DNA from: an uncultured Chlorobiota bacterium | GTDB taxonomy: Bacteria; Bacteroidota; Kapaibacteriia; OLB7 | DNA length: 7,227 bases | Direction of reading: 5' to 3' | Assembly: GCA_946481475.1 (NCBI GenBank) | Contig: CAMLOB010000185.1 | Location: 1-7,227 of the forward strand | Program-made: the position numbers and the translations under genes | Notes under the pieces: generated by a model | The model's database searches: none | Seen by the model: the letters and a program-made list of their open reading frames with translations, nothing else | What the model was told of the DNA's origin: nothing | In this document: positions 2,126 through 7,216 of the stretch, piece by piece | How positions within the stretch are numbered: position 1 is the stretch's first letter | How the letters are laid out: every line of letters starts with the position of its first letter

Positions 2126-2162
2126 GGGGCAAAAACTTTGGCACTAACATACATGACACACC
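2126..2162 (+). repeat. Left terminal inverted repeat
   Basis: This 37-bp repeat starts GGGGCAAAAACTTTGGCACT and ends GACACACC. It matches the reverse complement of 6327-6363 with mismatches only at repeat positions 10, 11 and 20. A fifth G at 2125 has no partner on the right. It is probably the transposase binding and cleavage end. Confidence 0.9.
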
Positions 2163-2222
2163 CAGTGATTCAGGTAAGCGATTCCGTATATTTCGCCCAA
2201 CGGACTACAAGCCGGTACAGGA

Positions 2223-2287
2223 TAGTGGATTTCGGGGAGGATGGGTAATCTACCAAACCGGGTATCAAGACCCGGATACCTCCACTA
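2223..2287 (+). other. Candidate structured RNA leader (three-way junction)
   Basis: TAGTGGA (2223-2229) can pair with TCCACTA (2281-2287), enclosing two hairpins: GGTA/TACC (2244-2247 with 2251-2254) and CCGGG/CCCGG (2258-2262 with 2271-2275). An alternative helix GGTATC/GATACC (2261-2266 with 2275-2280) is mutually exclusive with the last hairpin. The segment lies between the left repeat and a short open frame at 2301 that ends at a strong terminator, so it could be a 5' leader or part of a small RNA. No known riboswitch class is recognised. The pairing was found by eye and is not supported by covariation. Confidence 0.35.
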
Positions 2288-2300
2288 ACCCCATACCCTT

Positions 2301-2405
2301 ATGCTTGTAGAAGTACAGACCCTTGCAGCGATAACCGTGATGTTGGCAAACCTTCCCCGGGCTATCCGGACGGTGCGTCGATGGATCAAAAAGCTGTGTA
2401 GGTGA
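2301..2405 (+). CDS. Possible 34-residue hydrophobic/basic peptide
   Basis: A short frame starting MLVEVQTLAAITVMLANLPR and continuing into a cationic tail (AIRTVRRWIKKLCR). The N-terminal half could form a membrane-inserting helix and the C-terminal half carries eight Arg/Lys residues. The stop codon lies 7 bases before a strong intrinsic terminator, which supports a real transcript end here. Against it, there is no SD before the ATG and a frame this short can occur by chance. The composition resembles small membrane peptides, including some toxins and lysis peptides, but no homology is claimed. Confidence 0.33.
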   Translation: MLVEVQTLAAITVMLANLPRAIRTVRRWIKKLCR

Positions 2406-2412
2406 TCCGTCA

Positions 2413-2451
2413 GGGCGCGACTTGGGGGAAGTCGTGCCCGCTTTCGTTTCT
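2413..2451 (+). terminator. Intrinsic terminator
   Basis: GGGCGCGACTT (2413-2423) pairs with AAGTCGTGCCC (2429-2439): 11 bp with one G-U pair and a GGGGG loop. It is followed by the T-rich tail GCTTTCGTTTCT. It would end a plus-strand transcript from the left end of the element. Confidence 0.7.
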
Positions 2452-2689
2452 ACCCCCTCCAATCAGCTTCCGCAAAATACTCCCGTACCTTTCCCGTGTT
2501 GTCCGGTAATACCAGAATATCCCGATTCTCGTTATCTTCCCGACGCTAAACAGCTACCGGCGGCCGCATCCGTTAATGCGGCCTTCTATTGATCCATGAC
2601 CACGTGGGTCGGGTCTCCCCGTATCCGTAAGGGCGGGGGCGTCGTAGCTGACGTAGCAAGGCCCGGCCCGCCTCTTTTGCTGAACAGCT
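2452..2689. other. Gene-free stretch with one strong stem-loop
   Basis: I see no convincing gene here. GGCCGCAT (2562-2569) pairs perfectly with ATGCGGCC (2576-2583) around a 6-nt loop, with TTCTATT after it, so it is terminator-like but with a weak tail. A minus-strand frame at about 2453-2540 reads ENRDILVLPDNTGKVREYFA in protein-like style, but it has no start codon and a stop just upstream. It may be a gene remnant. The GC-rich 2600-2680 part should contain the promoter of the 2690 gene, but no good match to TAnnTTTG is visible. Confidence 0.4.
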
Positions 2690-2899
2690 ATGCCGACATT
2701 CAACCAACCAACCGAACCGACCGCATCGGAACAGCCGGAGCAACTCAGGGAAATCATTGAACGATCACGGGGACGATTGCAGGCACTGGAATACGCTTGC
2801 TACGGACTGGCTCACGTGACCGGAAAGGAAGCGTCGTGCCTGACGTGGGTTATCGAAGATATTATCAGAGATTTGGAGAGAGTGAAAGAGGGGAATTAA
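2690..2899 (+). CDS. Small helical hypothetical protein (69 residues), transposon cargo
   Basis: After a polar Pro/Glu-rich start, residues 16-40 and 47-66 look like two amphipathic helices (EQLREIIERSRGRLQALEY and SCLTWVIEDIIRDLERV) joined by a Gly/His turn (YGLAHVTGKEA), with Cys at 37 and 50. It is probably a small cytosolic helical hairpin. No SD is evident before the ATG. The stop is followed after 7 bases by a strong terminator, which supports it as a complete single-gene unit. The protein style (LEYACYGLAH...EASCLTWVIEDI) is familiar from unannotated mobile-element proteins, but no function is known to me. Confidence 0.68.
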   Translation: MPTFNQPTEPTASEQPEQLREIIERSRGRLQALEYACYGLAHVTGKEASCLTWVIEDIIRDLERVKEGN

Positions 2900-2906
2900 G
2901 AGAAAA

Positions 2907-2949
2907 AACACGACCAAAAGCCTTTGTCTTGGGTCGTGTTTGATTTTTT
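2907..2949 (+). terminator. Strong bidirectional-type intrinsic terminator
   Basis: AACACGACC (2907-2915) pairs with GGTCGTGTT (2932-2940). An A-tract precedes the stem and TGATTTTTTG follows it. It closes the 69-residue gene and insulates the next promoter. Confidence 0.85.
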
Positions 2950-2960
2950 GTCCAAACCAC

Positions 2961-2991
2961 TTGCATCCCTCCCTGAGGGGTAGTATTTTTG
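2961..2991 (+). promoter_or_regulatory. Bacteroidetes-type promoter for the winged-helix gene
   Basis: TTG at 2961-2963 and TATTTTTG at 2984-2991, separated by 20 bp, match the -33 (TTTG) and -7 (TAnnTTTG) boxes of the Bacteroidetes primary sigma factor. The position just after a terminator and about 20 bp before the start codon of the next gene is as expected. A small inverted repeat, CCCT/AGGG, lies inside the spacer and could be an operator half-pair. Confidence 0.6.
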
Positions 2992-3010
2992 CACCAGCTT
3001 TGGAGGATAT

Positions 3011-3532
3011 ATGGACGCAAATACAAATGCACTCAAACAGCTGTACGCTCTGCTTGAAGAGCGTCGCAATAGCGTTGTCAAGATCGAAAACGCTATTCGC
3101 GTGTTGGAAGATGAGTTGGGATTGTCAATTGAGACCGTGACCAAAGAAGACGCCTCAGTAGGCCAGCCGATGCGGAACGGAGCCAACCCTAAACGAGGGA
3201 AGCCAAGGTCAGTAAAGGCATTGTTTCGTCAAACGATTCTTGATGCTGGTAGGTTCCTTCACAAGTCGGAAATAATGGATCGACTCCGTGAGCATGGTTA
3301 TAAGGGAACTTCCAGCACCATATCGGGAACATTGAGTCACTTAACGAAAGCAGGGTACTTGCATGTAATCAAGTACGGGGATTCCCAGAACTTTCATCAC
3401 TATGGACTGCGGGAATGGATCCGCGAGGGAGAGGGGATGATACCGCCAACATTTGCGTCTCCTGAATACACTCCGATTATGCAGCGAGCCGGGCATATCA
3501 GCGAGAACGAGATCGATTGGAACCTGCAATAA
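3011..3532 (+). CDS. Coiled-coil plus winged-helix protein, probable regulator (173 residues)
   Basis: Three parts can be seen. Residues 6-37 form a heptad-like coiled coil (LKQLYALLEERRNSVVKIENAIRVLEDEL), likely for dimerisation. Residues 38-66 are a polar, basic linker. Residues 68-125 form a winged-helix-like domain with a FLHKSEIMDRLREHGY helix-turn-helix core, then SSTISGTLSHLTKAGYLHVIKYGDSQ as recognition helix and wing. The C-terminal tail (from about 138) is acidic and unrecognised. GGAGG at 3002-3006, 4 bases before the ATG, and a good promoter make this the best-expressed-looking cargo gene. Coiled-coil/wHTH proteins of this general build are common hypothetical proteins on Bacteroidota mobile elements. 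A role in controlling the transposon or its cargo is inference. Confidence 0.8.
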   Translation: MDANTNALKQLYALLEERRNSVVKIENAIRVLEDELGLSIETVTKEDASVGQPMRNGANPKRGKPRSVKALFRQTILDAGRFLHKSEIMDRLREHGYKGTSSTISGTLSHLTKAGYLHVIKYGDSQNFHHYGLREWIREGEGMIPPTFASPEYTPIMQRAGHISENEIDWNLQ

Positions 3533-3549
3533 CTAGGCAGTAAAAAAAG

Positions 3550-3585
3550 AAGAGACCGGATAGCTTTGGACGGCTCCGGTCTCTT
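3550..3585 (+). terminator. Stem-loop after the winged-helix gene
   Basis: AAGAGACCGGA (3550-3560) pairs perfectly with TCCGGTCTCTT (3575-3585): 11 bp and a 14-nt loop. The plus-strand tail (aaatgggcttttctg) is poor in T, whereas the minus-strand exit is TTTTTTTA. The hairpin is therefore a better terminator for leftward transcription, though it may still protect the 3' end of the plus-strand mRNA. Confidence 0.65.
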
Positions 3586-3608
3586 AAATGGGCTTTTCTG
3601 GTAAAAAT

Positions 3609-3728
3609 CAACGTTTACACGTTGGATTGTGCCCTGTTTGTGTTCACAAATGTACGTACATATGACGTGAAAAACAAGGAAAAAATGCTTCAAAGGGCGA
3701 CGGAGGGTCCGTCAACCGGCATTGCCGG
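3609..3728 (+). promoter_or_regulatory. Palindrome-dense gene-free region upstream of the 34-residue basic protein
   Basis: Five short perfect inverted repeats occur in 120 bases: CAACGT/ACGTTG (3609-3614, 3619-3624), TTTGTG/CACAAA (3637-3642, 3645-3650), the 10-bp palindrome TGTACGTACA (3651-3660), GACGGA/TCCGTC (3699-3704, 3708-3713) and CCGGC/GCCGG (3716-3720, 3724-3728). The first three are AT-balanced and look like protein-binding sites. The last two are GC-rich hairpins that would lie in the leader of the next gene. No promoter box is convincing. Confidence 0.45.
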
Positions 3729-3758
3729 GTTTCATTGATCCTTTAAACAGGAGGGCTC

Positions 3759-3863
3759 ATGGCGAAGAAGCCTGGACCGAAAACGGTCTATGTTCCTAGC
3801 CACATTCGAAACGGTACGTGGGTAAAGCCCCACTATCGGTCGAAGCCAAGACCGAAGAAGTAA
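3759..3863 (+). CDS. Very small basic protein with RNG..V..HYRS.P motif (34 residues)
   Basis: An optimal SD (AGGAGGG at 3749-3755) precedes the ATG by 3 bases, so translation is well supported despite the small size. The sequence begins MAKKPGPKTVYVPSHIRNGT and goes on WVKPHYRSKPRPKK; about a third of the residues are Lys/Arg. The core (VYVPSHIRNGTWVKPHYRSKP) matches a short motif I know from many unannotated bacterial proteins, of the form V.xHxRNGxxVxxHYRSxP, sometimes at the end of larger secreted or small cationic proteins. Here it makes up the whole protein, with no signal peptide. Nucleic-acid binding is plausible from charge but unproven. Confidence 0.7.
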   Translation: MAKKPGPKTVYVPSHIRNGTWVKPHYRSKPRPKK

Positions 3864-3913
3864 CTGATAACCGCTATCAATGGAGTGCGAAACGATGACC
3901 TTATTAGAAGAAA

Positions 3914-3953
3914 GCCCCGACACTCAAAACGCCGGAAAGCGCGGTGCCGGGGC
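3914..3953 (+). other. GC-rich imperfect stem-loop
   Basis: GCCCCGACAC (3914-3923) pairs with GTGCCGGGGC (3944-3953) with one A-C mismatch; A3913/T3954 extend it. An inner CGC/GCG helix could stack on top. It has no T-tract. It is the first of two tandem stem-loops between the 34- and 77-residue genes, in a segment with no firmly supported gene. Confidence 0.5.
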
Positions 3954-3993
3954 TATGACCATTAAGCGCGAGTACAAAGCGGTTGCCGTTTTC

Positions 3994-4036
3994 GGAGTGG
4001 GGGACGTTTGGCGACAGACCCCACTCCCTTTGTTTC
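3994..4036 (+). terminator. Terminator-like stem-loop before the 77-residue gene
   Basis: GGAGTGGGG (3994-4002) pairs perfectly with CCCCACTCC (4019-4027) around a 16-nt loop, followed by CTTTGTTTCACTT. It sits 34 bases before the next start codon, so it could be the end of the 3759 transcript or an attenuator for the 4061 gene. Confidence 0.55.
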
Positions 4037-4060
4037 ACTTAACAGTCAGAGGACTAAATC

Positions 4061-4294
4061 ATGGAAGCGATGCTTCTACCAACGCGCTGGGCGCAAACCC
4101 AGTCAAACGAGGTGGCACTAATCGTGCCCCGAGCATTCACGGCCTCTGATCCGCGAATGCAAGTGTTTCACGACCGTATCCGTGAAGGGTATTCCCTTGC
4201 GAGGGTCGTAGGCCTTGACAACGACCTGTCAAGGCTCGTCATGATCCTACAGAAGCCGGTAGAGCAGACCGGCATCGTCGTGGTATCCCGATAG
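4061..4294 (+). CDS. Small hypothetical protein (77 residues), transposon cargo
   Basis: AGAGGA about 9 bases before the ATG gives a good SD, and an intrinsic terminator follows 24 bases after the stop. Codon use is regular with many G/C third positions. The predicted product has beta-strand-like segments (VALIVPR at 18-24, and GIVVVSR at the C terminus) around a helical middle (MQVFHDRIREGYSLARVV), consistent with a compact alpha/beta fold. No motif or family is recognised. An overlapping 89-codon frame (3880-4149) was rejected in its favour. Confidence 0.65.
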   Translation: MEAMLLPTRWAQTQSNEVALIVPRAFTASDPRMQVFHDRIREGYSLARVVGLDNDLSRLVMILQKPVEQTGIVVVSR

Positions 4295-4318
4295 GTGAAC
4301 ATTCGATCCCCAGTGCAG

Positions 4319-4353
4319 AACCGCCCGTTCCATGCCGGGCGGTTGTCGTTTTG
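4319..4353 (+). terminator. Intrinsic terminator of the 77-residue gene
   Basis: AACCGCCCG (4319-4327) pairs perfectly with CGGGCGGTT (4336-4344) around an 8-nt loop, and GTCGTTTTGG follows. It ends the rightward cargo transcription facing the leftward transposase unit. Confidence 0.78.
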
Positions 4354-4398
4354 GCGATTGATAACTTTATCAATTGATCGGCAAGTCGCACCAAAACG

Positions 4399-4421
4399 CA
4401 ACATATAACCGTTATATGTTG
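4399..4421. repeat. 23-bp near-perfect AT-rich palindrome
   Basis: CAACATATAAC and GTTATATGTTG are perfect 11-bp arms around a single C at 4410. The site lies between convergent genes. Read on the minus strand it is followed by CGTTTTGG, so it might serve as a weak terminator of the transposase unit. Its dyad symmetry and AT content equally fit a repressor or recombinase binding site. Confidence 0.6.
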
Positions 4422-4460
4422 ACCGTTTACCCGGAGAGGGGGCTCCGCCTCTATTAAATT

Positions 4461-4619
4461 TTAATAGTCGCCGTTTTTACGCTTGGCCCCCTTTTCTTCC
4501 TGCTCCTCCTCTTCAATCTCTTCGACCGGCACCGTCAGCAAGGCTTTGGTCAACTTCTCGAATCGCTCGTATTCTTCCGAGCGTTCCGGTAATCGTTCTT
4601 TTTCCTTTTTCTTCGTCAT
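4461..4619 (-). CDS. Small charged partner protein of the IS1595-type transposase (52 residues)
   Basis: The frame starts 37 bases after the transposase stop on the same strand, so the two form one leftward unit. The product has a Lys/Glu-rich start (MTKKKEKERLPERSEEYERF), a helix EKLTKALLTVPVEEIEEE, an acidic run and a basic tail. The FxKLTxxLLxVPxxEI core is a pattern I know from short hypothetical proteins often found next to IS1595-type transposases in environmental bacteria, which supports a real gene. SD is weak (taggtttgcgaa). Its role is unknown; transposition control or complex assembly is a guess. A 17-bp palindrome, CTATTAAA/TTTAATAG (4451-4467), overlaps its stop codon. Confidence 0.72.
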   Translation of the reverse strand: MTKKKEKERLPERSEEYERFEKLTKALLTVPVEEIEEEEQEEKGAKRKNGDY

Positions 4620-4656
4620 TTCGCAAACCTACCACATCGTTTGTTCACTTCCAATA

Positions 4657-5604
4657 TCACGCATTCTTTCCAGTCAATCCCGCATACGTCAGCCGCCTTC
4701 CCGTCAATGCCCCGACAACCGTCTCGAATCGGTCTCGATCCTTCCCTTTTCGCTCGTTGAACCGGAAGGTCTCTTCGTCCAGATACCGGAACAGGTGAAA
4801 CGGCTCGACTGCTACGTACGTTCCTTTGATGCACCGCTTGAACAGTGCCCAGAAATTTTCCAGACCGTTCGTTGTGACGGTCCCCCGAACATATTCGTTT
4901 GCTGTGTGACAGACGATCTCGTGGTAATACTCCGCCGAAAGTCCTTCATACGAGGCGTTTGTATCCGTGTGGATATTCGATCCTTTCTCGACATTTGCCT
5001 TGACTTCTCCCTGTAGCGTTCCCCTCTTCGTATCAGGAACCACCATCGCCCGAACCTGACTTCCCTTGCCCTGCTTGTCCCGTTCCAGTAAACCCAGAAC
5101 GATGGCTTTCCCAACAGCACCCCCGCCTTTGATCTTCTCTTTCTTCTTCGATGCGTGCATGTTCCGCGCCTTGCCCCCGATGTAGGTTTCGTCAATTTCC
5201 ACGTCTCCCTTCATCTTTTCAAAGGTGCCGGTGCGCATTGCCATGCGGATGCGATGCAACAGGAACCACGCGGTCTTTTGCGTTACGCCCAATGCGCGAT
5301 GCACCTCATACGAGGAAATCCCGTTCTTCGCATTGGCAACAAGCCAGATCGCACACAACCACTTGTCCAGACCCAGCGCACTGTCTTCCATCAACGTTCC
5401 AACCTTAACGGAGAACTGCTTACGGCAGCCCTTGCACTTCCAGATACGGCGTGTTTTCAGGAACGAATGTTCCTTGCACTGGCAATGTGGACAGGTGACC
5501 CCATTCGACCAGCGAAGGGAGACCATGTAATCGAGTGCCCGATCTTTATCGGAGAAGTAGAGGATAGCCTCTTGAAGGGTACGTGGCGTGTTGCGCTGTT
5601 CCAT
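4657..5604 (-). CDS. IS1595-family (ISXO2-like) transposase
   Basis: A 315-residue enzyme expected to cut and rejoin the terminal repeats of this element. An N-terminal zinc ribbon has CPHC (residues 38-41) and CKGC (57-60). A helix-turn-helix-like region follows (about 95-122, SSYEVHRALGVTQKTAWFLL). The ISXO2-like catalytic core shows the first Asp in VEIDETYIGGK (D138), the second in IHTDTNASY (D214), and the third acidic or Asn position in TTNGLENFWALFKR (N246 or E249, with K256). The end has the family's RYLDEETFRFNER block (273-285). Length and domain order are normal, with no frameshift or early stop. A perfect promoter ends 4 bases before the ATG and no SD exists. The 52-residue gene follows it. 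Confidence 0.95.
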   Translation of the reverse strand: MEQRNTPRTLQEAILYFSDKDRALDYMVSLRWSNGVTCPHCQCKEHSFLKTRRIWKCKGCRKQFSVKVGTLMEDSALGLDKWLCAIWLVANAKNGISSYEVHRALGVTQKTAWFLLHRIRMAMRTGTFEKMKGDVEIDETYIGGKARNMHASKKKEKIKGGGAVGKAIVLGLLERDKQGKGSQVRAMVVPDTKRGTLQGEVKANVEKGSNIHTDTNASYEGLSAEYYHEIVCHTANEYVRGTVTTNGLENFWALFKRCIKGTYVAVEPFHLFRYLDEETFRFNERKGKDRDRFETVVGALTGRRLTYAGLTGKNA

Positions 5605-5608
5605 GCCA

Positions 5609-5639
5609 CAAAGATACGGCGCGATGCTGGATTATCAAA
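5609..5639 (-). promoter_or_regulatory. Perfect Bacteroidetes-type promoter of the transposase, implying a leaderless mRNA
   Basis: On the minus strand, TTTG (5639-5636), a 19-bp spacer and TATCTTTG (5616-5609) match the -33/-7 consensus exactly. The -7 box ends 4 bases before the ATG (5604-5602), so transcription should start at or within a few bases of the start codon. This agrees with the lack of an SD sequence. Confidence 0.8.
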
Positions 5640-5791
5640 GAATTTTTCGTATATTGCGAGGTTTTTCCCGAAAAAATTTCGCGGAAAATTTTCGATTGTA
5701 AATAGCAGAGCGATTCATTAGCTTTACTGGTATTCTGTCGCTATGTGTGGCGACTCTCACAATTCTTCCACTATCTCAGTAGGTGAACACG
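5640..5791. other. Divergent intergenic region between transposase and the 50-residue gene
   Basis: This AT-rich stretch contains an imperfect palindrome centred on CGCG (about 5669-5694, arms CGAAAAAATTT and GAAAATTTTCG). It lies just upstream of the transposase promoter, so it could be an operator. A hairpin GTCGC/GCGAC (5737-5741 with 5750-5754) lies near the rightward gene. TATGTGTG (5742-5749) is a one-mismatch -7 box for that gene, but no -33 box is correctly spaced. Confidence 0.4.
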
Positions 5792-5944
5792 ATGAAGGTT
5801 TCGCCGTACCACTCGATTACTCCGGAGGAGCCGGAGGTCTATCACGACGACAACAATTGTCCGTATGGGAAAAACATCAAACCGGAGAATAAGCGGTCCG
5901 GCACTGATGGTCGCCCAAAGTGCCAATGGTGCAAGGATAATTAA
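5792..5944 (+). CDS. Small Cys-containing putative metal-binding protein (50 residues)
   Basis: AGGTG, 8 bases before the ATG, is a reasonable SD. The product starts MKVSPYHSITPEEPEVYHDD. It has the pattern VYHDDNNCPYGKNIKPENKR (residues 16-35) followed by SGTDGRPKCQWCKDN, with three Cys (23, 44, 47) and His18 as possible ligands of one zinc or iron site. The layout V-Y-H-(4)-C-x-x-G-x-x-I ... R-x-G-x-x-G-R-x-x-C-x-x-C is one I know from short conserved hypothetical proteins on mobile elements and in environmental genomes. No function is established. Its stop lies 10 bases from the stop of the convergent gene. Confidence 0.75.
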   Translation: MKVSPYHSITPEEPEVYHDDNNCPYGKNIKPENKRSGTDGRPKCQWCKDN

Positions 5945-5954
5945 TTGCCGCGCT

Positions 5955-6308
5955 TTACTTGGTGGGAGCAAACACAAGCTCCCACCAAGCCCCTTCAACT
6001 TCCCGCGTCACGACACCACTGTTTTGAATCCAATAGACTCGGCGCAACTCTCTCACGGGTAATCCCGCATCGATCGCGATACCAAGTGCCCGGAAGCCTT
6101 CGCCGTACTGTCCTTTGAATCTGACCGTTGGCCTGTCATAGGAATGTCCCTCTCCACCTTGACAGGACTCTATCGTATACACTCCGTGATTTCGCAAGAG
6201 TGTGACTGCATCGAAGATTCCCGGATCAAGCCCCGGTATTGGTGGTAGTGGTTCTGGTGTGTAGGGGTTGCCTCGCAATTCGGCAAGCATAACCGTCTCC
6301 TCGCTCAT
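5955..6308 (-). CDS. Conserved hypothetical protein with ESCQGGEGHSY motif (117 residues)
   Basis: The protein contains GLDPGIFDAVTLLRNHGVYT (27-46), ESCQGGEGHSYDRPTVRF (47-64) and a closing WWELVF. This matches a family of short hypothetical proteins in bacteria and phages, with the order GlDP-LxxxGVxTxESCxGGxGH-xPTVxFxG-EGxrAL-LRR-WE. The Cys/Gly/His cluster looks like an active or binding site, but none has been assigned that I know of. I prefer the ATG at 6308 because GAGGA lies 7 bases upstream; an ATG at 6314 would place the same SD only 1 base away. The start is about 18 bp inside the right terminal repeat, making it the outermost cargo gene. Its last codons lie in a 12-bp perfect inverted repeat. 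Confidence 0.82.
   Translation of the reverse strand: MSEETVMLAELRGNPYTPEPLPPIPGLDPGIFDAVTLLRNHGVYTIESCQGGEGHSYDRPTVRFKGQYGEGFRALGIAIDAGLPVRELRRVYWIQNSGVVTREVEGAWWELVFAPTK
5958..5989. repeat. Perfect 12-bp inverted repeat at the convergent gene ends
   Basis: CTTGGTGGGAGC (5958-5969) pairs exactly with GCTCCCACCAAG (5978-5989) around an 8-nt loop. It codes for the last residues of the minus-strand gene (WWELVFAPTK) and follows the plus-strand gene's stop by 13 bases. Neither exit has a T-tract, but the hairpin would stabilise or terminate both converging mRNAs. Confidence 0.7.
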
Positions 6309-6326
6309 CTCCATTTCCTCACTCTT

Positions 6327-6363
6327 GGTGTGTCATGTATGTTGGTGCCAAAACTTTTGCCCC
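6327..6363 (-). repeat. Right terminal inverted repeat
   Basis: Read on the minus strand from 6363 it begins GGGGCAAAAGTTTTGGCACC and matches the left repeat at 34 of 37 positions. The three differences are all transitions. Similarity ends exactly at 6363. Confidence 0.9.
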
Positions 6364-6475: not shown

Positions 6476-7216
6476 CTACGCCAGCGTATAATAATCCTCC
6501 GCCTCGTCGGTGAAGATCCTTACCAGACCGGCCCGGACCAGGCGTACCATCACGCGGGAGGCGCGCCGCTCGGAGATATTGACCTGATGACGGAACTCCC
6601 GCAGGGTAATCCGTCGGTTCTTCTCCAGATAGTCGAAGAGGGCGCGTTCGATCTTTCCGATGTGAAGCGTCAGCGGAGGGGCGTCGGGATGGTCGGCCGC
6701 AAGCACCCGCTCCACTTCCCTGCTTGCGATGACGCTCCGGTCTCCCTGCCGGATATAGACCGGCCGGGGTGGTTCTTCCTCCTGCTTCTTCCCCTTCTTT
6801 TTTTCTCTTCGTGCCGAACCCCGAACCGACTCGTCGGGTGTTCGCGGCAGCAGGTAGTGGGGCTTTGTCCGGCTTTCGGGTATCGAGACGACCAGAACGT
6901 CGACCCCGTCGATCTCCACGACCTCGATATCGGCGTCGATTGCCGGGTCGCAGTAGAACTCCCCGGCGGTCGTCACCAGTTCGATTTCATGTTTCTCGCT
7001 GTCGACGCCGACAATGCTTCCGTCGTCGTTGACTCCGATCAGAATCATTCCCCCGCGTGTGTTTGCAAAGGCGATCATCTCCTTTGCGATCTTCTCGAAA
7101 TCGGAAAAACGACGCTTGAATTCCACAACGTCGTTCTCCCCAAGCTCAATGATCTCGCGGAGTTTCCGGACGCTCAACGGCCTGTTTCCTCGGTTTGACT
7201 CTGCAAGGGGAGACAT
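6476..7216 (-). CDS. AlbA_2/Schlafen-type putative DNA-binding protein with C-terminal winged helix
   Basis: A 246-residue protein. Residues 25-112 form an AlbA_2 (Schlafen AlbA-like) domain with the usual signature VVEFKRRFSDFEKIAKEMIA, then FANTRGGMILIGVNDDGSIVGV (50-71), and a following IPESRTKPHYL strand region. A very basic, low-complexity linker (about 131-150, RREKKKGKKQEEE) interrupts the usual domain end, and YIRQGDRSVIASREVERV (154-171) resumes it. Residues 187-245 look like a winged helix (IERALFDYLEKNRRITLREF, ERRASRVMVRLVRAGLVRIF). AlbA_2 proteins are generally treated as transcriptional regulators or nucleic-acid-binding proteins. The ATG at 7216 has no SD within the 11 bases visible upstream. 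It lies outside the transposon. Confidence 0.85.
   Translation of the reverse strand: MSPLAESNRGNRPLSVRKLREIIELGENDVVEFKRRFSDFEKIAKEMIAFANTRGGMILIGVNDDGSIVGVDSEKHEIELVTTAGEFYCDPAIDADIEVVEIDGVDVLVVSIPESRTKPHYLLPRTPDESVRGSARREKKKGKKQEEEPPRPVYIRQGDRSVIASREVERVLAADHPDAPPLTLHIGKIERALFDYLEKNRRITLREFRHQVNISERRASRVMVRLVRAGLVRIFTDEAEDYYTLA

Follow-up and report, generated by a model that had tools for sequence, protein, structure and literature searches.

An IS1595-family transposon with a candidate accessory transposition gene and a putative phage-type passenger module

The IS1595 family of mobile elements was reportedly defined by Siguier et al. in 2009. One member, ISApl4, is described in PMC12561309 as 712 bp long, with a 654-bp transposase gene, terminal inverted repeats (TIRs) and 8-bp direct repeats. 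According to PMC5704250, tISCpe8, which the title of its own paper presents as a lincomycin-resistance element, and MTnSag1 are integrative mobilisable elements with an IS1595-type transposase and other genes between their ends; the term tIS is applied to IS1595-family elements in PMC7986276. Here, we analyzed a 7,227-nucleotide stretch of contig CAMLOB010000185.1 from an uncultured Chlorobiota bacterium (this whole stretch is called the window). Taken as a whole, the locus is best explained as an IS1595-family transposon that carries a mini-protein gene, p52, and a phage-type passenger module of two genes, ESCQ and CYS, a reading to which we assign a probability of about 0.72.

Transposase and element borders

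The transposase reading frame is uninterrupted by stops and matches PF12762 (E 8.9e-42), PF12760 (E 2.3e-14) and NF033547 (E 5.2e-55), all above the curated cut-offs, bearing out the intact ISXO2-like transposase proposed in the initial annotation; it is of the IS1595/ISXO2 type of DDE transposases with an N-terminal zinc ribbon. The further proposal of an IS1595-family transposon with passenger genes is likewise upheld by the TIRs, an 8-bp duplication and the transposase family. Since a single transposase gene was recognised in the window, the element does not qualify as a composite transposon; genes other than those for transposition lie between its TIRs (the CYS and ESCQ families at least), as in a tIS. 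Among the best 120 of 7,999 relatives, the nearest non-self transposase shares 87% identity across 77% of the query and the next shares 72% across 98%. Searching with the window transposase returned 10 genome loci with 55–65% identity (best segment) and one locus in viral contigs, and any transposase match was found in 56/199, 37/201 and 24/194 genomes of three phyla. One genome, G008, has 17 transposase matches, which suggests expansion of the family there.

Inverted repeats of 40 nt with a 90% match lie at 2126-2165 and 6324-6363, so the two repeats reported earlier are present. Element ends were sought with a script that scans the surroundings of each transposase for TIRs and a perfect 8-bp direct repeat, and the combination was found in 17 distinct elements with transposase identity of at least 47%, the window included. 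Their TIRs start with GGC or GGT, and once with AGT, in a sequence near GGYAAYAATATACTTGACTCACC. About 20 further distinct copies at the same identity showed no such ends, some of them lying at contig ends and eight having long flanks. Because the TIRs of the relatives begin with GGC, the borders are placed at 2140 and 6349 rather than at the 2126 and 6363 of the initial annotation and, judged from its sequence, the element is an IS1595-family transposon of 4,210 bp. Its TIRs are related to those of the relatives, and an 8-bp target duplication, AAAACTTT, flanks it on either side.

With the element removed, the target reads as a near-perfect palindrome, GGGGCAAAAACTTTTGCCCC, and the outer 14 bp of what had been called a 37-bp TIR are made up of the AAAACTTT duplication and the palindromic target halves; the TIR itself is ~23 bp. 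That the 37-bp repeats are true TIRs, with no target duplication, is very improbable. The repeat does reach 2126 and 6363, and the TIR of ISApl4 is printed as beginning with GGGG in PMC12561309. Against this, the relatives' TIRs begin with GGC or GGT and are adjoined by 8-bp duplications, and the window has an exact duplication in the relatives' frame and none in the wider frame, where the flanking octamers GCCTGTAG and TCATTTTG mismatch. Moreover, both mismatches in the outer 14 bp sit at positions where an octamer duplicated in direct orientation cannot pair in inverted orientation (AAAACTTT matches 8/8 as a direct repeat versus 6/8 as an inverted repeat). As the window shows, an inverted repeat can look longer than it is when the target is palindromic. 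We propose that the 4,210-bp element moved, via an 8-bp staggered cut, into this palindromic intergenic site and that the transposase would move everything between the TIRs; the 8-bp duplication implies that this transposase moved the entire segment.

The p52 mini-protein and the ESCQ–CYS pair

Downstream of the transposase gene lies p52, for which Pfam and NCBIfam gave no match above cut-off. We searched 3.38 million six-frame residues with the motif F..F...(A/M).(K/R)LL.VP(K/H).EI and then with a profile. All 37 matches were located downstream of a transposase, within 1.5 kb, and none occurred away from one; once duplicate places and four sub-hits without significance are discounted, 23 distinct cases remain, of which 15 are on the opposite strand to the transposase and 8 on the same strand. 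The count took in distinct transposase copies that were complete at the 3′ end and followed by 300 bp or more of sequence. In it, p52 accompanied 11/18 of the copies at least 54% identical to the window transposase and 12/20 of those at 45–54%; it was found with 0/48 copies at 35–45% and 0/30 below 35%, as judged with a profile built from members of this subgroup, which may miss remote versions elsewhere. The suspicion that weak p52 matches were compositional noise was overturned by the motif and profile searches and the distinct-copy counts. The 52-residue transposase partner suggested earlier is thus retained, and the distribution suggests that p52 is an accessory transposition gene specific to this subgroup, whose product may help or regulate the process.

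The second association concerns ESCQ and CYS. Relatives of ESCQ in the protein database share the core LDxGIAxAVxxLxxxGVETFESCQGGEGHxYxEPTVRFxGxxGEGFRALG, and relatives of CYS, with the consensus VHHNNxxCTEGNNIExENxRxGTGGxPLCxxC, were found directly beside ESCQ relatives; residues of both are invariant across distant copies. Neither has a significant match in Pfam, NCBIfam, PHROGs or PADLOC. For the window CYS gene, a start at 5792 (50 aa) is the more likely one. On environmental viral contigs, where 100 stretches matched a pattern, ESCQ occurs at no fewer than 80 loci. Across 88 ESCQ domains at 85 loci, the pair was convergent (tail-to-tail) 45 times and on the same strand once, or convergent in ~39/40 after duplicate places were merged (L045/L228/L229, L155/L156, L196/L197 and L214/L216; also L230/L255 in a second pairing count). 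The final ESCQ codons of the window form a 12-bp hairpin (5958-5989); hairpins of 13 and 12 bp lie near the pair in L152 and L194, and stems of at least 9 bp occur in 3/40 pairs, with a control value of 0.6%.

Gene neighborhoods of the pair were analyzed at paired viral-contig loci flanked by 4 kb or more in both directions, covering 95 of the 125 listed proteins at 19 of 21 selected loci (two duplicates out). Some neighbors match integrase (4 by PF00589), portal, terminase, capsid and DNA methyltransferase families; others include an IS110 transposase and cellular enzymes. The integrase, portal, terminase and capsid neighbors indicate that many of these contigs, not each of them proved, are phage or prophage. 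In addition, one ESCQ-like predicted structure comes from an uncultured Caudovirales phage.

Ten distinct places (15/92 loci rows) have an IS1595 transposase, or part of one, no more than 6 kb from ESCQ: the window, genomes G065, G221 and G257, and viral contigs L158, L159, L163, L168, L189 and L196/L197. CYS is within 1.5 kb of ESCQ at all 10, although at L158 it is on the same strand, 0.9 kb off. Five ESCQ- and CYS-bearing elements, those of the window, G221, L168, G065 and G257, have both ends and an exact 8-bp duplication, confirmed in all five by a second examination. Their transposases are 28–51% identical pairwise, and where the pair sits and which way it points with respect to the transposase differ from element to element; together these observations speak against a single recent capture, as far as sequence comparison can tell. 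In the ESCQ tree, rows linked to transposons are interspersed among the others: 9 label changes are required for the 10 IS1595-linked rows, against a mean of 9.6 for shuffled labels, and supported branches make at least four of them unavoidable. At L163:9300-11000, an IS1595 transposase gene is split by ESCQ and a truncated CYS; the break falls between GVTQKT and AWFML, and no residue is missing there.

On chromosomes, the ESCQ alignment matched 1/149, 16/301, 4/246, 1/149 and 0/194 genomes of five phyla (1,039 genomes). In most of these 22 genomes the match is no more than partial and falls in other, larger proteins that have an SCEGH motif. Such larger proteins, with the motif DPGIxxxVxxLxxxGxxTxxSCEGH, were seen at L231, L233, L234, L236-L250 and other loci from the sets of 301 and 246 genomes, and the one tested, at L236, had no Pfam match above cut-off. 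A match over at least 80 of the 104 model positions was found in 4/1,039 genomes, G065, G221, G257 (divergent) and G995 (weak); the matches in the first three are each enclosed in a bounded IS1595 element, and no IS1595 transposase was found within the short flanks examined in G995. At a contig edge in G403, an ESCQ end and CYS face each other. CYS matched more widely than ESCQ, in 10/201 and 3/149 genomes: of 18 CYS loci, four have ESCQ (three also with IS1595) and 14 have neither within 1.5 kb (L259-L264, L266-L271, L273 and L274). L263/L268 has two CYS-type mini-proteins in tandem.

We propose that ESCQ–CYS would be a small self-contained phage-type accessory module, each gene presumably with its own promoter and the stops face to face, that phages and IS1595-family transposons may have passed to one another on repeated occasions and that may be retained because it helps its carrier against the host or competing phages. 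Alternatively, the pair could move or home independently, inserting itself into phages and IS1595 elements. Its varied places and orientations across elements would fit, as would L163, where it interrupts the transposase gene between residues adjacent in relatives; nevertheless, neither ESCQ nor CYS has a recognised nuclease or recombinase domain, and the L163 CYS is apparently truncated at the junction, as if accidentally, which leaves this explanation improbable. We give about as little credence to an addiction pair (toxin–antitoxin) stabilising its carrier. Two small linked genes on mobile elements would be expected of such a pair, but ESCQ and CYS are convergent and form no operon, have no significant match to a known toxin or antitoxin family, and are separable, CYS standing alone at some loci and ESCQ often lacking CYS; the window ESCQ and CYS also have no PADLOC match.

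Several observations weigh against the proposal of a transposon with p52 and a phage-type module. The pair is not obligatory: CYS is absent within 1.5 kb for 42/88 ESCQ domains, no recognisable CYS accompanies ESCQ at 37/86 loci in the second count, and CYS is also found alone. Queries with ESCQ and CYS gave no match in 50,697 named phage records. On viral contigs, IS1595 linkage is a minority situation (6 distinct places among the 80 loci examined), with two of the six having only a transposase piece and one an interrupted transposase. The profile did not detect p52 in the four other ESCQ-bearing bounded elements, one of which, that of G065, has less certain ends, with 10 additional bases beyond the usual GGC start. 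Resolution of the ESCQ tree (82 rows, 93 columns) is poor, and many of its forks are open. Finally, the roles of all cargo genes are putative.

Other cargo and the insertion site

The remaining cargo of the window element consists of the genes for p69, a 173-aa protein, HYRS34 and p77 (Table 1), which appear credible from ribosome-binding sites in all but p69 and from terminator-like hairpins in all but HYRS34, although they score weakly on codon usage. In Pfam and NCBIfam, nothing above cut-off was found for p69, p77 or the 173-aa protein, and matches of the four to PHROGs and PADLOC were at chance level or absent. The 173-aa protein has sub-threshold helix-turn-helix matches in Pfam, a PADLOC Csa3 match at E 0.006 and a structure model with a predicted local distance difference test score (pLDDT) of 52; it matched only itself among 5.8 billion proteins. 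In that database, the 173-aa protein and ESCQ are each present on 8 contigs. The HYRS34 pattern was found in none of the other loci then examined. An 89-aa open reading frame (ORF) at 3880-4149 overlaps p77, has no Shine–Dalgarno sequence and scores -0.14 bits/codon, and is doubtful as a gene. The initial count of a transposase plus seven or eight small genes therefore comes down to eight credible genes, transposase and p52 included. These other cargo genes resemble separate small transcription units.

Table 1 Features of the window element and of the other bounded elements that carry ESCQ and CYS.
Feature	Position or length	Strand	Basis
Palindromic target, left half GGGGCA, outside element	2126..2131		9/10 symmetric pairs in reconstructed target, control mean 1.95
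Target-site duplication, left copy AAAACTTT	2132..2139		exact match to 6350-6357; frame from relatives' ends
TIR, left	2140..2162	+	22/23 against other end; aligns with relatives' GGYAAYAATATACTTGACTCACC
p69, orphan small gene	2690..2899	+	codon score 0.14; no Pfam, NCBIfam or PADLOC match; PHROGs best E 0.23
Terminator-like hairpin after p69	2906..2949	+	10-bp stem, then T run
173-aa protein, orphan	3011..3532	+	GGAGG upstream; coiled-coil-like N-terminus (by eye), weak winged-helix signal
Terminator-like hairpin after 173-aa gene	3550..3585	+	fold
HYRS34 mini-protein, orphan	3759..3863	+	AGGAGG upstream; no PHROGs or PADLOC match
p77, orphan small gene	4061..4294	+	AGAGGA upstream; hairpin 4319-4344 downstream; no family match
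p52, VP[KH]xEI-type accessory mini-protein (putative), 52 residues	4461..4619	-	family in 23/38 copies at ≥45% identity, 0/78 below
IS1595-family transposase, 315 aa	4657..5604	-	PF12762, PF12760, NF033547; relatives
CYS, three-Cys mini-protein, 50 aa	5792..5944	+	family alignment; convergent with ESCQ
ESCQ protein (ESCQGGEGH), 117-119 aa	5955..6314	-	14 non-self relatives of 15 listed in protein database; ≥80 viral-contig loci
TIR, right	6327..6349	-	repeat comparison and relatives' ends
Target-site duplication, right copy AAAACTTT	6350..6357		exact match to 2132-2139
Palindromic target, right half TGCCCC	6358..6363		same reconstruction
G221 element	2,674 bp		duplication ACATCCGA
L168 element	4,237 bp		duplication AGAATATT
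G065 element	3,863 bp		duplication ACAGCCGT
G257 element	2,760 bp		TIR 24/24, duplication GACATGTC

Because no relatives of the 173-aa protein (the winged-helix/coiled-coil protein of the initial annotation), HYRS34, p69 or p77 were found in the databases searched, the full combination is not the conserved travelling set that had been supposed. What does travel is narrower: ESCQ and CYS are found together again on viral contigs and in four further IS1595-family elements with defined ends, and p52 goes with its subgroup. Of 70 cargo ORFs listed for 19 elements, 19 were tested against Pfam; the cargo lists of four of these elements (L042, L140/L071, L143 and L145) are not used here, and 21 elements were delimited by their duplications. 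DUF3800 proteins were found in L001, L002, L003, L133 and L136 by Pfam and in L071 by a home-made profile, that is, in 6/21 bounded elements, and further cargo comprised a proteasome-like protein, PIN and IrrE-like proteins. Such variety from element to element would suit chance capture, in which the cargo has no selected role and its recurrence reflects shared gene pools. Yet invariant residues of ESCQ and CYS are kept across distant copies, and the two recur with transposases only 28–51% identical; we therefore regard chance capture as unlikely, if less so than homing or addiction.

The insertion site is intergenic, between the convergent genes at 1229-1957, whose product we take to be a TauE-like membrane protein, and at 6476-7216, which encodes a Schlafen/AlbA_2 protein (Pfam). 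A terminator is to be expected between two convergent genes, and the palindrome GGGGCAAAAACTTTTGCCCC is probably the one shared by these two. Between the TauE-like gene and the element, at 1957-2035, GAGAGTT/GAGTG-like words are repeated.

General targeting of hairpins by this transposase group was considered and set aside: mean symmetry was 3.68/10 in 22 targets versus 2.51 in sliding controls, and strong symmetry was confined to the window (9), L006 (7), and L003 and L136 (6 each), leaving a mild preference for symmetric targets possible. The L003 target, CCCCCTTTTTCAAAGGGGG, resembles the window palindrome, and the target flanking L006:9931-11913, CCATTCGATGCAGCTAACGG, presumably resembles an integron attC quasi-palindrome. 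The duplication CAAGTTAG is common to three separate insertions (L004, L128 and L080), and similar duplications occur elsewhere (CAAGTTTG, CAAATCAG and CAATCTTG); this recurrence may reflect a weak target preference.

Comparison with described systems

Phages carry accessory genes known as 'morons'. ESCQ–CYS is like them in consisting of small genes beside phage structural and integration genes, and unlike them in also occurring inside IS1595-family transposons, so that an unnamed gene pair links these transposons to environmental phages. If the pair indeed acts in phage–host conflict, simple transposons would be a route for phage accessory genes into bacterial chromosomes. A bolder version, which we offer tentatively and consider rather unlikely, is that IS1595 transposons and environmental phages trade a conflict module, made of an SC-G-G-H protein and a three-Cys zinc-finger-like protein, with the transposons serving as vehicles for phage weapons or shields, and that the subgroup has an undescribed second transposition gene, of the VP[KH]xEI type. 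For a widespread transposon subgroup, p52 would in any case be a candidate second transposition gene that is open to knockout.

Neither the ESCQ–CYS pair nor the p52 mini-protein is mentioned in the literature consulted, which includes PMC12561309, PMC7986276, PMC3942029 and PMC5704250, although no search was aimed specifically at either of them by name or by sequence. ISApl4 and the window element are alike in transposase family, TIRs and 8-bp direct repeats, whereas the window element, at 4,210 bp, has a candidate accessory gene and cargo, and a different TIR sequence. In tISCpe8 and MTnSag1, as here, further genes accompany an IS1595-type transposase between the ends; unlike them, the window element has no recognised resistance or mobilisation gene and carries a gene pair shared with viral contigs.

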